Source: Salinarchaeum sp. Harcht-Bsk1 (lineage in GTDB: Archaea; Halobacteriota; Halobacteria; Halobacteriales; Salinarchaeaceae). From it: 64,000 bases of DNA. Positions 13,289 through 64,000 of this stretch are shown here, piece after piece. Where the stretch lies: NCBI RefSeq assembly GCF_000403645.1, contig NC_021313.1, positions 2,437,014 through 2,501,013 of the forward strand, in the 5' to 3' direction. Each line of letters starts with the position of its first letter. The first letter of the stretch is position 1. The notes below the pieces were generated by a model. The model ran no database searches and was not told the DNA's origin. It worked only from the letters and a program-made list of their open reading frames with translations. The position numbers and the translations under genes are program-made.

Positions 13289-13456
13289 CTACGTTCTGGC
13301 AGGAGCAAGCAGGAGCTGTCGTACCAGTTGACCGGCGATGGACCAACTGCTACCTCCAACTAGCGAATTGAGCGGAAGAATTTTTCCACCGGTGTGGCCG
13401 CAAATCAGGACAACGACATCATAGAACAGCCGAGTGACTGCGTATACGTTCCGAGA

Positions 13457-13930
13457 CTACGGCAAGCCATTCTGCGCGTTCACCAGGTTCCCATCACAGT
13501 TCTCCACCGCTGTCCACCACGTCTTTAGTACAGCAATTGTGACGAGTTTCGGAGGGTGATCAACTCCGATACAGGATTGCTCATGTGCATCGAGATTATC
13601 CGGTGGGTGAAAATGCCGTTCCGGAGTATCGGTGGGTTCATTCTCCGCCTCGCGGCCGAACCTGAATTCTAGTCCATCCTCCCGGTAGTGGTATTTGTTG
13701 TCTCCATTTTCCCACCACTGAATATCGAAATATCCGCCTCGCTCGTGAATCCCTGGGGTGACAGTGACCCGTGCCGCTCTGATATCTTCTCCTTCCCGCT
13801 GTGTGAACGGGTTCCCTTTCCGATACCGGAATCGGACTTCGACGACCCCTCTGCCGAGTTGCTGGCGCATCTGCTCCACGCTCTCATCGATCGCTTCCGA
13901 ATCGATTGGAGAGCCATTCCCCATCCCCAT
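13457..13930 (-). CDS. TumE/DUF6516-like candidate toxin
   Basis: This 157-residue protein has a central beta-rich pattern (GGYFDIQWWENGDNKYHYRE) and a His-rich segment (ERHFHPPDNLDAHEQ). These resemble the small TumE-like proteins that form pairs with winged-helix partners. Its ATG overlaps the stop of the upstream winged-helix gene by one base (TAATG), so the two are coupled. The gene lies in the low-GC island. Membership in the TumE family is pattern recognition only; an unrelated partner protein is possible. Confidence 0.6.
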   Translation of the reverse strand: MGMGNGSPIDSEAIDESVEQMRQQLGRGVVEVRFRYRKGNPFTQREGEDIRAARVTVTPGIHERGGYFDIQWWENGDNKYHYREDGLEFRFGREAENEPTDTPERHFHPPDNLDAHEQSCIGVDHPPKLVTIAVLKTWWTAVENCDGNLVNAQNGLP

Positions 13931-14610
13931 TACTGGAGTGAGGGCTGATTGCCGCCCGGGGTCGTTGTCTGATTCCCCGTCTGTTTGTCTCCCGGTTCAG
14001 TGACGGTGGCTGCCGTCTCTTTTGCCTCTTTGAAGCGGTATGCAGCTCTAAGGTGGCCGAGTTCCCGCTCTGCTGTCCGCCAGTGAGAGACGTCGTCGAG
14101 TTCATCCTGGTCGAGTTCCGTGTCTGAAACCAAGAGTTCCGCTGGATCGGTTGCGTCGTATTTGGCGTTGTACGCTGCGATTTCCTGTTTTACGCGCTGG
14201 ATTTGATCGACGAGCGTTTCGCTACCGGCGAGTTGCCTGATCTGTTTGAGGAGATGCCACTCTGGGTCTCGGGCGTACAGTTTTCCGGAGTCTGTCTGCT
14301 GACTGCTAACAATGCCTTCTTCGGCGAGCTTGTTGAGCGTGGCTCTGGCTTTTGTTTCCGAGACGAGAGCTGTCTCTGCGATGTCGCCCGCCGATTTCAG
14401 AACCGTCGTTCTGTTGATCACTGTGCGAATTCGCTCGTCCGCAGTGGTCTCGTTTTTCCACTCTGCGGCTGCGAACTCATCGATGTCCTCGAAGTCGTCG
14501 TCATCGACAGTGAACGGGGTAATATCGTCCACGGTTACCGTTTCGTCCGGTAATTCCTCGTCGGTGGGGAACTCGTCGGGGCCGTCAGGAGATGGTGGCT
14601 CGTCGGTCAT
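13930..14610 (-). CDS. Winged-helix (DUF7342-like) regulator, candidate antitoxin
   Basis: The ATG at 14608-14610 gives 226 residues. After an acidic N-terminus come FAAAEWKNETTADERIRTVI and a winged helix (DIAETALVSETKARATLNKL, EEGIVSSQQTDSGKLYARD). A helical region follows, ending with an ELGHLRAAYRFKEAKET segment. This layout fits the haloarchaeal winged-helix family I know as DUF7342. It directly precedes and overlaps the TumE-like gene, so an antitoxin/autoregulator role is likely. The C-terminal 25 residues are Gly/Thr/Asn-rich and probably disordered. Confidence 0.7.
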   Translation of the reverse strand: MTDEPPSPDGPDEFPTDEELPDETVTVDDITPFTVDDDDFEDIDEFAAAEWKNETTADERIRTVINRTTVLKSAGDIAETALVSETKARATLNKLAEEGIVSSQQTDSGKLYARDPEWHLLKQIRQLAGSETLVDQIQRVKQEIAAYNAKYDATDPAELLVSDTELDQDELDDVSHWRTAERELGHLRAAYRFKEAKETAATVTEPGDKQTGNQTTTPGGNQPSLQ

Positions 14611-14642
14611 ACAGTACGCTACGCCTCGAAAACACATATATT

Positions 14643-14903
14643 TTATTGGCTCGGATATGTGGGGTTCGATTGTTGATCTCGAAGGTGTCCAGGATACGGA
14701 ATCGGGGGATGAAGGCCGGAGGTCGGACTGTGCAACGGATTCGAATCTACTAGTAGATCTCCGGTGTCGTCCGGTTTAATTAATACAGTGACGTGGCCCC
14801 GTCGTTCCTCGCGTCGATCGCCGTCGGCGAGGCCGGTGCAGTCGCCAGCGAGCACGCGGATCGCGTCGCCGCCGTCGCCACGCAGGGGGTGTGGTGCTGG
14901 CAT
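14643..14903 (-). pseudogene. Truncated DUF91 gene start
   Basis: From the ATG at 14901-14903, 47 codons (MPAPHPLRGDGGDAIRVLAG ... VLIKPDDT) match the start of the complete gene at 10786-11703. After base 14763 the match stops abruptly and the frame runs on as unrelated Pro/Ser/His-rich sequence to a stop at 14643. The NucS-like N-domain is therefore cut short and the zinc ribbons are missing. I read it as the stranded 5' end of an interrupted gene. Confidence 0.75.
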
Positions 14904-54959: not shown

Positions 54960-55823
54960 TCAGCTGGAGTCGTTCAGGTCGGTATCGTTCTCGACGAGGA
55001 CGGTTCCGGCGTCGACGCCGTCGACCGTCAGGTCGTAGCTCCCGGCAGCTTCGAACGCGGGGTCGAATTCGACGGTGTCGCGCTCGCCCGGCCCGAGTCG
55101 CACTGCGCGACTGTCGATCGCGGTGCCGTTTGCACGCAGCACCAGATCGACCGATCCGTTCGCTCCGCCGTCGTTCGCGACGGTCGCCGAGACCGGAACT
55201 GTCTCGTTCACCTGGACCTCCCCCTGGGCCACGGAGGCGTCCGTGACGTCGATGTCGGCGACCGGCGCAGAGACGGTCACCGTTCCCGCGACCCGTCCTG
55301 CCGCGGCGAGCGTGTAGTTGCCGGGCGATTCGAGCGTTCGAGAGAGCGTCAGCGACGCGGTCTCGTTCGGCGACACCGTCGTCGTATTCGTCGCCGTCGC
55401 CGTTCCGTCGACGCTGAGCGTCGCGGCCAGTTCCCTGGATTCGTTTGCTCGGTTGACGGCTCGCACGGTGACCGTGGCCGCCTCCCCGGTCGTCAGTTCC
55501 CCGTCGCCGGACAGCGAGACTGCGGCCACCTCGAGGGCGGTATCGTTGGTGCCTCGATCGTGCGTGCCGTTTCGGGTCCCGTTCCCCGGCGCAGTCGTCG
55601 ACTCGTTCTTCGCAGACGTCCCGTTCTCGTGCGTCGACGCGTTCCCCGGCGTCGTGACGTTCGTCGCGGGGGTCCCGGAGTCGTAGTCGGTGGCGACCGA
55701 GAAGGATCCCGAGACCGTCTCCTCGTCGCTGAACAGCGCGACCGCGCCGCCACCCGCCAGGACGCCGGCAGCGCCGACGACGAGGCAGGCGACCACCACG
55801 GCCACGAGACGGTGTTCAGTCAT
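54960..55823 (-). CDS. SipW-type-signal surface protein with CARDB-like repeats
   Basis: The 287-residue protein starts with a hydrophobic signal (LVAVVVACLVVGAAGVLAGG) followed by ALFSDEETVSGSFSVATD, a SipW/TasA-type cleavage region. Residues ~48-95 are a Thr/Asn/Ser linker with many NxT/S sequons, a likely N-glycosylation hot spot. Two beta-sandwich repeats of the CARDB type follow (AATVTVRAVNRANESRELAA; TVPVSATVANDGGANGSVDL). The start overlaps the end of the signal-peptidase gene by eight bases. It may be an accessory or anchoring subunit of the TasA-like surface structure. Confidence 0.72.
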   Translation of the reverse strand: MTEHRLVAVVVACLVVGAAGVLAGGGAVALFSDEETVSGSFSVATDYDSGTPATNVTTPGNASTHENGTSAKNESTTAPGNGTRNGTHDRGTNDTALEVAAVSLSGDGELTTGEAATVTVRAVNRANESRELAATLSVDGTATATNTTTVSPNETASLTLSRTLESPGNYTLAAAGRVAGTVTVSAPVADIDVTDASVAQGEVQVNETVPVSATVANDGGANGSVDLVLRANGTAIDSRAVRLGPGERDTVEFDPAFEAAGSYDLTVDGVDAGTVLVENDTDLNDSS

Positions 55824-56655
55824 CGATTTCCTCCCGCCCCGCCGGTGGCGCGGCGTCGCTCACGTCCGCTGTGGGCCCTTCACCCGGGAACCCATGCTCC
55901 TGCAGGGACGGTTCACCGAGGTGCGCTGGTGGTTCGTCCGCTTGCCCGGCTTCGGGGTCGGGAGCTTCGGCTACGCCGGTGAGCGGGTCGGACTCTCGCT
56001 GGATCAACTCCTCTCCCTCCTCACCTTCTTCCTCCCGCTCTCCATTCTTCTCCGTCCTCGATCGATCGCCCGTGCGGACGCTTCTGTAGAACAGCGTCCC
56101 CTCGAGGACGCCGAGTGCCAGCGCGCTGAATCCGACGGCGTAGGCGACGGCGAACGCCATGAGCGTCTGGAGCCTGAGGGCGACGTACGCAGTGTAGGGT
56201 GTCAACAGTACCAGCACGAGGAGGGTCACCGCGAGGTCCGTCGGGCCGATTGCGCGTCCCGTCGCCCCGGTTCCGTCGGCCATCGGTCCGCCGGTGGTCG
56301 CTCCCGGTTCCGCCGCGGGGCCTTCGCCGTCGTCGACGGGCGTCCGTGCGTGAGCGCCGTCGCCCGTCGCTGACCCATGGATCGACCCCGCACGCTCGCT
56401 CGTCGGCTCGTCGCGTTCGGGCGATCCGCCGCTGGCTGCTCCGCCACTCGACCCCGAACGCCTGGCGATCGACCAGGCCTCGGTGACCGCCAGCAATCCG
56501 AGCGGGAGCAGGACGAACGCGGCGAACCCGAGTGGCGTGTTCGCGAAGTGGATCACGTAGCCGATGAGTGGGATCGTCAGGACGGCGGTTCCGACCACGT
56601 TCGACGCGGGCACGGGTTGTGGGTCTGGATCCTCGTTCGCGTCCCCTTTCGTCAC
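55816..56655 (-). CDS. SipW/Sec11-type signal peptidase, C-terminal part (out of frame)
   Basis: This frame continues the peptidase after a shift in a G run (forward C4 at 56706-56709). Reading back to the shift it supplies VTHRVVDVREENGQRSFVTKGDANEDPD, given here as VTHRVVDV (catalytic His) and FVTKGDANED (catalytic Asp). Two hydrophobic helices, a long disordered acidic stretch, two more helices and a Glu-rich tail follow. The GTG at 56655 could start an independent protein, but that protein would lack the Ser and His. The extended C-terminus (over 200 residues) is unusual for the family. Confidence 0.7.
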   Translation of the reverse strand: MTKGDANEDPDPQPVPASNVVGTAVLTIPLIGYVIHFANTPLGFAAFVLLPLGLLAVTEAWSIARRSGSSGGAASGGSPERDEPTSERAGSIHGSATGDGAHARTPVDDGEGPAAEPGATTGGPMADGTGATGRAIGPTDLAVTLLVLVLLTPYTAYVALRLQTLMAFAVAYAVGFSALALGVLEGTLFYRSVRTGDRSRTEKNGEREEEGEEGEELIQRESDPLTGVAEAPDPEAGQADEPPAHLGEPSLQEHGFPGEGPTADVSDAAPPAGREEIDD

Positions 56656-56945
56656 GAACGACCGCTGGCCGTTCTCCTCTCGAACGTCGACGACCCGGTG
56701 CGTGACCCCGTCTCCTGCCCGTCGCGTCTGAAGGTCACGACGTCGCCTTCCTCGATCGCGGACGGGGCGGTATCGTCCACGACGATCGCGTCACCCGGAG
56801 ACAGCGCCGGCTCCATGCTCCCGGAGAGGATCACGTAGCTCTGCTCGGCACCGACGACGCCCGGGACGGCGTAGATCACGAATGGCACCACGAGCGCGAG
56901 GAGCACCACGAGCCCGACCCCGTGAAGGAGCCGCCGACGGTTCAC
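56652..56945 (-). CDS. SipW/Sec11-type signal peptidase, N-terminal part (frameshifted)
   Basis: The 97-residue frame starts MNRRRLLHGVGLVVLLALVV (membrane helix) and contains the catalytic serine in SYVILSGSMEPALSPGD and the beta-strand EEGDVVTFRRDGQET. After QET it should read into THRVV but instead runs out of frame (GSRTGSSTF) to a stop. Adding one G to the GGGG run restores a complete peptidase with 55816-56655. It is either a real mutation, a slippage site or a sequencing error. The gene sits between TasA-like genes, whose signal peptides it should cleave. Confidence 0.75.
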   Translation of the reverse strand: MNRRRLLHGVGLVVLLALVVPFVIYAVPGVVGAEQSYVILSGSMEPALSPGDAIVVDDTAPSAIEEGDVVTFRRDGQETGSRTGSSTFERRTASGRS

Positions 56946-58009
56946 GATCCATCACCCCCGTCACCGGCGTCGTCCACGCAGACTGACGCGTCGACGTAGC
57001 TGATCGCCGGCCGCCGCTCTCGGTCGTTCGCTCCCGACTCGATCGGCCCCGTGCAGACTGGTTCGGCGGTCCTCGCGCGCGCTGGCTCGATCCCGTACGT
57101 CCAGACGTCGGTCCCGCCTTTGAGCTGTACCTCGCAGAGCCTGGCGTCCGGCGCGTCGTCTCGGCGGAGCGCCAGATCGACGCAGACGGGCTCCCCGCCG
57201 TCCTTGGTCGTCACGTCGCGCACGTCGAGTTCGTACGCGTGTCCGTCGTCGCGGAACCGCTCGGCGAGTTCATCGAACTCGTAGGTGCCGGGCTCGAGGC
57301 GGTCGCCCTCGACCTCGAGTCGGCCCAGGTGCACGCACGCCGGGCACGGCGCTGGCTCGCACGCAACGTCCTCGTACGGATTCCGGACGCTCGATTCGGA
57401 GACGTGTCTGCACTGCTCCGCGTAGCATTCGAGGTCGACCGTCGAGTCCGCACCGGGCTCCGGTCGGGCGCCCTCGGGCAGGCGGTAGTCGAGCCGGAGG
57501 CAGGTATCCGACCCCGGGGACAGACAGGGGTCCTGGGGATCGTCGAGACGGCGACCGTCGGCGAAGGCTGTCTGCAACGCCCGGAGCGTCCCCCACGATT
57601 CCCCAAGCGACTCCGGGAACAGTTGGCGGGGAGTGCCGTCGCAGCCGCGGTCGATCGAGAGCCGAACCAGCAACGCGTCGGCGAGTTCGTCATCGGCCGC
57701 GGGACACGCAGTCCAAACCCAGACGCGGAGCGCGTTGTCGACCGTTCGCAGGCGAACCGTTCGCTCCCCGGACGAGCCCGGAACGAGTCCGTCGACCGAG
57801 AACGAGAGCGTCCCGTCGGTGACCGAACAGTCCGCTTCGAGACACTCGATCTCGATCCCGGGTGCTCCGGCGGTGATCACGTCTCCCACGGTCGCGTCGT
57901 CTCGTTGCGTCGCCGCCGTGATCGCACCGGCGCCGCCGCCCAGCGCGCCGACGGCGGTGAGGCCGCCGAGCAGTTTCCGCCGCGTGAGTTCGGGACCGTC
58001 CTGCGTCAT
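56942..58009 (-). CDS. Tat-exported TasA-related surface protein
   Basis: ATG 58007-58009 gives 355 residues with a twin-arginine signal (LTRRKLLGGLTAVGALGGGA) and no TasA-type AYFTD box. The core contains the cluster motif ECYAEQCRHVSESS at ~residue 200. A later domain, VCEVQ-LKGGTDVWTYG ... VDASVCVD, resembles a domain in the 60183-62294 protein. It is rich in cysteine for an exported haloarchaeal protein. It overlaps the signal peptidase gene by four bases. Confidence 0.7.
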   Translation of the reverse strand: MTQDGPELTRRKLLGGLTAVGALGGGAGAITAATQRDDATVGDVITAGAPGIEIECLEADCSVTDGTLSFSVDGLVPGSSGERTVRLRTVDNALRVWVWTACPAADDELADALLVRLSIDRGCDGTPRQLFPESLGESWGTLRALQTAFADGRRLDDPQDPCLSPGSDTCLRLDYRLPEGARPEPGADSTVDLECYAEQCRHVSESSVRNPYEDVACEPAPCPACVHLGRLEVEGDRLEPGTYEFDELAERFRDDGHAYELDVRDVTTKDGGEPVCVDLALRRDDAPDARLCEVQLKGGTDVWTYGIEPARARTAEPVCTGPIESGANDRERRPAISYVDASVCVDDAGDGGDGS

Positions 58010-58367
58010 CGGATCACCTCCGTTCGCGGCCACCGTCGCGATATTACTGCCCGGAGCTCCGCTCCGGCAGGATCGAAACGAGCGTTGGCGACTGTTGTCG
58101 TGTTCATGCCCATCTCCCCCCTCCCCGACGGACGGTTCGAATCGGACAGTAGTTGGCCGGCATACATTTTAGCTATAGGCTGGATACCAGCAGCTTACCT
58201 CGCGTAAGCAGATTCCTACTGGCGAGTGAGAGACAATCACCGGCGGTACGTTGGCAGCGCCCGGGTCGCATCGCCGAACTGCTGGCCGAGCCACCGATGT
58301 CGGGGCCGCTGGTCCCAGCGGCGGTCCCGTCGGTCGTCGATCGGATCGGGGCGGCGACGCGCGCACG
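58010..58367. other. Gap between TasA-like genes
   Basis: No gene is supported in these 358 bases. The minus strand contains an AT-rich element near 58166-58190 (AGCCTATAGCTAAAATGTAT) that may be a promoter for the downstream gene at 58009. Confidence 0.45.
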
Positions 58368-62390: not shown

Positions 62391-63755
62391 CTACTGCCAG
62401 TCGATCCCGACGAAGTCCTGGCCGTCGAAGTCACTCGTGGAGCCCTCGAACCGGAGGGTGCCCTCCACTGTCACCGTATTCGTCGCTGGAACGTTTTCGA
62501 TGGCCAGGAATGTGAGCCCATCCGTGGCATCGATATTGTCAGGGTTGACTGAAGCTCCATTGAGATCGACCTCTTTCACCACGGTCGTCACATTTGCGTC
62601 GCCGCTGGAGGCGGTCAGCGCGACATTGACCTCATTGGGGACACCACCCGGCCACTCCGGTTCTCCAGTGGACGCGCCATTCGCGGTCCCATCCGTGACG
62701 TCGTTGTCGGTGACGGTCTCTCCGTTGACGGTGAGCGAGGCGGTTTCAGCTACCGGATCGACCGTTGCGATGAAGTCCACATCGGTGTTGGCGGGGAACG
62801 TATCGCCGGGATTCGATCCCCACAACGTGGTGTTTTCGACGCCACCGCTGTCGCCATGAATTTGTATCTCGCCGCGACCCGATCCTGCCCGTGACAGGGC
62901 CTGCATCGAGAACGCCTTGTTATAGGAAATCTCGGAGAAGTCACCGGTGCCTACGGTTCCCTGGGGCAAACACGGGTTGTTCGTGCCGTCGTTGTGGCGG
63001 CACTGCTGCGCGTAGAACTCGAGGTCGAACTCGAGGGTGTCCGTCTGGATCTCGTTCCCGACGCTGGTGGGAATTTCCCAGTCGATGCACACACAGGGAC
63101 TCTCCCACTCCGATCCGGTGCCGCTGAAGCACTCCTGGTTGCCGGGTTCGAAGAAGCCGCCGTTCTCGCCGTCCTGGACCCGACCGTGGCCGTCCAGTGG
63201 GACGCCGGTACGGATCCGGGCGAGGAACTCCGCGAGCGTTCCGCTCCAGACCGCGTTGCAGTCGGAGACGGAATCTGGTCCGAACCCGCCGTCGTTGTTC
63301 TCCTCGATCTCGCAGTACTTGACCGTGAGCTGGATGCTCTCGGCGAGTTCGCCCTGCCCGTTGTTGTCTCTGGGCTCGGGCTCTGTGTAGCCGTTCTCGA
63401 AGTTGGCGGTCATCTGGCCGCAGAGCCAGAGGTAGGCCGGGTTCGTCTCGATGCGGGGACAGAAGGCGAGCAGACCGCTATCGCCCGGCTTCACGTCGTC
63501 GAGCTCGGCGGTGACGGCGTTGCCGTCGGCCGTGCCGGAGACGAGACCAGTGCCGGCCCGCCCCTGGTTCCAGTACGAGTAGTAGTCGACCAGCAGGTCG
63601 AGGGATCCGGCCGTGATGACGTTGTCTTCGAACGATTCCTCGTCTGTGAAGTACGCGCTCGTCCCGACGGCAGCACCCGCGGACGCGACGCCGATGGCGC
63701 CGAGTCCGCCGAGCACCCGTCGTCGGGTCAGATTGACGGTCTCTTTGTCGGTCAT
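62391..63755 (-). CDS. TasA/camelysin-like surface protein, first gene of the cluster
   Basis: The 454-residue protein has NLTRRRVLGGLGAIGVASAG (Tat signal), GTSAYFTDEESFEDN and TAGSLDLLVDYYSY. The core continues with DVKPGDSGLLAFCPRIETNP, LAESIQLTVKYCEIEE, LAEFLARIRTGVPLDG and ends LEFDLEFYAQQCRHNDGTNN (~255). The remaining ~200 residues are a Gly/Thr/Asn-rich beta domain (ATVDPVAETASLTVNGETVT). The frame is open upstream to 63965, but the Tat start at 63753-63755 and the promoter motif upstream fix the start. Confidence 0.78.
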   Translation of the reverse strand: MTDKETVNLTRRRVLGGLGAIGVASAGAAVGTSAYFTDEESFEDNVITAGSLDLLVDYYSYWNQGRAGTGLVSGTADGNAVTAELDDVKPGDSGLLAFCPRIETNPAYLWLCGQMTANFENGYTEPEPRDNNGQGELAESIQLTVKYCEIEENNDGGFGPDSVSDCNAVWSGTLAEFLARIRTGVPLDGHGRVQDGENGGFFEPGNQECFSGTGSEWESPCVCIDWEIPTSVGNEIQTDTLEFDLEFYAQQCRHNDGTNNPCLPQGTVGTGDFSEISYNKAFSMQALSRAGSGRGEIQIHGDSGGVENTTLWGSNPGDTFPANTDVDFIATVDPVAETASLTVNGETVTDNDVTDGTANGASTGEPEWPGGVPNEVNVALTASSGDANVTTVVKEVDLNGASVNPDNIDATDGLTFLAIENVPATNTVTVEGTLRFEGSTSDFDGQDFVGIDWQ

Positions 63756-63825
63756 GGTTGGCCCCGATCGAGACCGGAACGGTCGGTTCCGGCCGTCGGG
63801 TTGGATCGTCCAACGGAGGACACCA

Positions 63826-63838
63826 CCTTTGTTACACG
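63826..63838 (-). promoter_or_regulatory. TRTAACAA-type motif upstream of the TasA-like cluster
   Basis: The minus strand reads CGTGTAACAAAGG, ~77 bases before the first TasA-like gene. Between them are two hairpins (GTTGGA-CGA-TCCAAC and CCGGAAC-CGACC-GTTCCGG). Confidence 0.5.
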
Positions 63839-63839
63839 A

Positions 63840-64000
63840 TCTGATCCACGGACCGAACCCGTCGTTCGACGCGGCCTCGCGAGTCCGAACGTCGCGTTCG
63901 GCGACCGTCGATTGGGTCGAACGGACCGTTCGACGAGCGCATCGACGGGTGAACGGCCGATTCACCGAGCTGGATGCGTCCCTCTGTCCAGGGTTGTCAC
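63840..64000. other. Right edge, no gene seen
   Basis: Beyond the promoter motif I see no supported gene up to the window edge. A frame on the minus strand remains open but has no coding character. Confidence 0.4.

Follow-up and report, generated by a model that had tools for sequence, protein, structure and literature searches.

A SipW/Sec11-type signal peptidase gene divided by a one-base frameshift in a surface-protein cluster of Salinarchaeum sp. HArcht-Bsk1, probably a recent pseudogene

In a 64,000-nucleotide stretch of the chromosome of Salinarchaeum sp. HArcht-Bsk1 (positions 2,437,014 to 2,501,013 of NC_021313.1, hereafter the window), a signal peptidase gene is read in two frames, and its catalytic serine is separated from its catalytic histidine and aspartate by a net shift of one base. 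The frameshift is most likely genuine and correctly placed in a known kind of gene, with the locus being a recent pseudogene and a sequencing error its main rival. We consider it probable that a recent one-base frameshift has disabled this gene, as an ordinary loss of function in the isolate. As a natural mutant, the strain is of some modest use; otherwise, the finding is a pseudogene of an ordinary type.

Results

One peptidase gene in two frames

The coordinates of the two pieces, of the junction between them and of the neighboring genes are given in Table 1. The first piece is an open reading frame of 97 codons that ends with TGA at 56654-56652 and has a tail without similarity, while the frame of the second piece carries VTHRVV followed by TKGDAN and is open as far as 55816. 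In the NCBIfam search, which was also run on the whole genome, the pieces match consecutive parts of the 158-position model TIGR02228 (8-74 and 77/79-148, respectively) and thus together make up one peptidase; the SipW model NF046067 is matched in the same order (33-81 and 86-164). When the pieces are scored alone, only the second passes the TIGR02228 cut-off. The GC content at the three codon positions is 0.77/0.41/0.88 in frame 1 before the junction and 0.74/0.54/0.79 in frame 2 after it, which is the signature expected of coding sequence; at the junction, this signature passes from frame 1 to frame 2. The catalytic triad is therefore not contained in one polypeptide, with the serine of LSGSMEP in the frame of 56652-56945 and the histidine and aspartate in the next frame, as had been stated in the original prediction and is confirmed here by the reading frames, the family matches and the codon-position GC. 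Judged by these motifs, the gene as read is a disrupted SipW/Sec11-type archaeal signal peptidase I and not a working member of the family.

Table 1. Features of the divided peptidase gene and its neighborhood, in window coordinates
Feature	Coordinates	Strand	Basis
Signal peptidase, piece 1: N-terminal membrane segment and LSGSMEP, out-of-frame tail, TGA	56652..56945	-	TIGR02228 8-74
Signal peptidase, piece 2: THRVV, TKGDAN, C-terminal membrane/acidic extension as in relatives	55816..56703	-	TIGR02228 77/79-148
Frame junction: GGGG on the coding strand, approximate frameshift site	56706..56709	-	Gapless alignment with in-frame relatives
GTGA: frame-1 stop overlapping the first possible start (GTG) of piece 2	56652..56655	-	
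Upstream gene, 363 aa; 4-base overlap (GTGA) of its 3' end with the start of the peptidase gene	56942..58033	-	ORF
Downstream gene, 287 aa, with a CARDB domain and a SipW-dependent-type signal (TIGR04088); 8-base overlap with the end of the peptidase gene	54960..55823	-	
TasA/camelysin-like protein, SipW-dependent-type signal, 591 aa	58368..60143	-	
TasA/camelysin-like protein, SipW-dependent-type signal, 712 aa	60183..62321	-	
Fourth SipW-dependent-type protein, 524 aa (L085:9404-10978)	about 62391..63965	-	

The shift falls between the serine part and the histidine/aspartate part of a Ser-His-Asp peptidase gene. If the cell carries the mutation, the ribosome would make a 97-residue fragment with the serine only. 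The codon list of the second frame contains no ATG, GTG or TTG from the junction to the GTGA; because there is no start codon before this GTG, the histidine would be in no product unless the frame shifts. Restarting at the GTGA (56655-56652), an overlap of the same type as that at the start of the peptidase gene (56945-56942), gives a second piece that begins with MTKGDAN, keeping the aspartate and losing the histidine. At best, the second piece would be restarted there, past the histidine, so that no catalytically complete product would be expected. Such a restart might preserve translational coupling to the downstream gene.

Comparison with in-frame relatives

All 36 homologous loci compared, approximately 32 of which are distinct because a few represent the same genome taken twice, cross the junction in one frame. 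The relatives align gaplessly over it, for example RDGADTPVTHRVV of Natrialba swarupiae against RDGQET.VTHRVV of Salinarchaeum, and the window sequence is thus one base out relative to them. The junction run, which is CCCC on the plus strand, had been explained as a G run with one G missing. The net shift of one base is borne out; that the lost base was a G is not shown, since a proline codon (CCN) precedes the V/T-T-H-R stretch in 35 of the 36 loci and none of the 36 has GGGG at the junction position, so that only the net shift is demonstrated.

Sequencing error as an alternative explanation

According to the main rival explanation, the gene of the strain is intact and one base was lost in the consensus, an error aided by the high G+C content and the Ion PGM mate pairs. 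Ion PGM, from which part of the data come, is a platform with a tendency to run-length errors. Furthermore, a single-base shift beside a short G run is the sole defect of a gene that is otherwise perfect and holds a conserved place in its operon; apart from this shift, both pieces are intact and the remaining genes of the operon are all open, and a sequence error would look alike. Nevertheless, a run of four is short for run-length errors, and the data are mostly Illumina. The genome (CP005962) was assembled with CLC from Illumina MiSeq paired reads (5.9 million of 101 bases and 0.22 million of 250 bases), with the Ion PGM mate pairs as a second library, and the reads were mapped back (PMC3715672).

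The frequency of frameshifts in this assembly, a single contig of 3,255,260 bases, was estimated from a comparison between 800 kb of it and 1.2 Mb of sequence from the sister species (G001). Among 289 conserved genes (299 kb aligned), we found no credible frameshift. As a control, one deletion was planted in each orthologue, and the same script recovered 196 of the 289 (68%). Given zero cases, the rule of three places the frameshift rate of the assembly below approximately 1 per 68 kb of coding sequence (95%), and the same bound makes the chance of an error in a gene of the size of the peptidase less than approximately 2%. The absence of credible frameshifts in the 289 genes thus favors a real mutation, and we regard the loss of a base in the consensus as unlikely. 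It should be noted that 4 of the 289 genes had apparent frameshifts compared to the sister, which were rejected because the query reading frames were over-extended at the start, and that most stop matches in this comparison lay close to one or the other end of a gene or in frames that appeared to be antisense.

Broken copies in other haloarchaea

A search with the SipW profile yielded 156 carriers among 392 haloarchaeal genomes. Besides that of Salinarchaeum, at least four of these carriers (G361, G319, G224 and G012) have broken or truncated copies; the counts are lower bounds taken from the matches listed, and some of the incomplete copies may have a different origin. The copy in Natronorubrum thiooxidans (G361:C16, L016:6001-6405, the same locus as L056) has a one-base frameshift after TRGDAN, at the position of VVVLT, and a further full-length SipW-type copy is present in that genome (G361:C30). 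The copies of G319 (L057) and G224 (L059) lack the N-terminal half, and that of G012 (L060) lacks the His/Asp half and runs on into unrelated sequence. These decayed copies indicate that loss of a SipW-type gene is not rare. Taken together with the low frameshift rate of the assembly, they make a real loss, a priori, at least as likely as an error.

With Salinarchaeum included, a broken or truncated copy is present in at least 5 of the 156 carriers. On this basis, one could propose that SipW-type peptidases of haloarchaea are repeatedly, and perhaps reversibly, inactivated, with the assembly of TasA-like surface filaments switched off in some lineages that keep the substrate genes; we consider this broader scenario improbable.

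Programmed slippage and phase variation

The original prediction had also offered programmed slippage and phase variation as explanations. Under the former, ribosomes would shift by -1 on the GGGG and make some full-length peptidase in a regulated manner. The second piece does lie in the -1 frame, and glycyl-tRNA could slip back by one base on GGG and pair again. In addition, -1 frameshifting is proven for an archaeal gene, the alpha-L-fucosidase gene fucA1 of Sulfolobus solfataricus (PMC8211752), which likewise consists of two pieces in the 0 and -1 frames. However, in fucA1 the heptamer A-AAA-AAT is accompanied by a stem-loop and by rare codons (PMC8211752), whereas neither a heptamer nor a structure was found at the Salinarchaeum junction: the 0 frame reads GAG ACG GGG TCA, without an X-XXY-YYZ heptamer, so that one tRNA alone (that on GGG) could re-pair, and the 81 bases 3' of the junction fold at the level of shuffled sequences (z = -0.05, 200 shuffles, in a pseudoknot-free model). 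No Rfam element was found at the locus. The run and its codon context are not conserved either, with a frame transition at the junction in 0 of the 36 loci and thus no relative in need of a shift. The lack of a heptamer, of a structure and of a transition in homologues makes programmed frameshifting very improbable.

Phase variation, in which reversible changes of run length would toggle the peptidase within the population, has a still lower probability: a one-base change in the run would suffice, and other haloarchaeal copies are broken as well, but a run of four, absent from the relatives, is far too short for hypermutability, GGGG is commonplace (the window has 396 G/C runs of exactly 4 and 66 longer ones, and the peptidase gene itself has 11 homopolymers of 4), and the other broken copies differ in site and kind (a frameshift downstream of TRGDAN in G361 and truncations in G319, G224 and G012).

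The surface-protein cluster and its remaining peptidases

The peptidase gene belongs to a tight minus-strand operon, between the gene for the 363-aa protein, which has no Pfam or NCBIfam match, and that for the 287-aa CARDB protein; three further proteins with SipW-dependent-type signals are encoded upstream of the operon. The genome has only four TIGR04088 proteins, all of them within approximately 9 kb of the peptidase and none with an internal stop. The peptidase thus adjoins SipW-dependent-type signals, the arrangement of a SipW-TasA-type cluster, and motif-bearing reading frames are found close to the peptidase gene in all six relatives inspected. A PDB sequence search with the 591-aa neighbor returned nothing useful. 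The earlier assignment of the gene to the signal peptidases and of its neighbors to the TasA-like proteins is borne out.

TasA of Bacillus subtilis has a dedicated enzyme, SipW (PMC10269814). The Salinarchaeum cluster resembles the Bacillus system (NF046067) in that a peptidase of the ER/archaeal type is encoded beside TasA-like putative substrates with a SipW-dependent signal; unlike Bacillus SipW, the Salinarchaeum gene is frameshifted, and the haloarchaeal copies have a long C-terminal membrane/acidic extension. Haloferax volcanii has two enzymes of the same family (TIGR02228) with the Ser/His/Asp triad, Sec11a and Sec11b, of which Sec11b is essential (PMC4343526); unlike the product of the divided gene, these are general-purpose enzymes. 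Two further signal peptidases are encoded in Salinarchaeum, one of 408 aa at 1253766 (NSMEP, THRVV, TKGDNN) and one of 274 aa at 1659605 (SGSMEP, HRV, TRGDAN). Both are intact and fit a general-purpose Sec11 role better than the divided gene does.

Should the shift be real, this cluster would be without its dedicated peptidase, and the four SipW-dependent-type neighbors would either stay uncut or go to the two remaining signal peptidases. HArcht-Bsk1 would then be a natural mutant that has lost a SipW-type peptidase and kept four presumed substrates, in which one could ask whether TasA-like proteins of haloarchaea need a dedicated peptidase or whether Sec11 suffices. In annotation, the locus is to be flagged as disrupted pending a check of the reads.

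Synteny with the sister species is unbroken on both sides of the cluster, in the window up to approximately 54774 and again from genome position 2502007. The approximately 10 kb that hold the peptidase and its putative substrates (genome positions 2491774-2502007, reaching 1 kb past the end of the window) are absent from the sister, and this difference may reflect either a gain in Salinarchaeum or a loss in the sister. No SipW-type copy was found in the sister (G001) or in a further member of the family (G002), which have only Sec11 proteins of 400-424 aa. Separately, window positions 13455-14681, with a 235-aa reading frame (13930-14637, minus strand), match G001:2914151-2915376 at 94% identity. 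This match is not part of the syntenic block and exceeds the similarity of its surroundings (mostly 70-89%), which suggests a recent transfer or a mobile segment.
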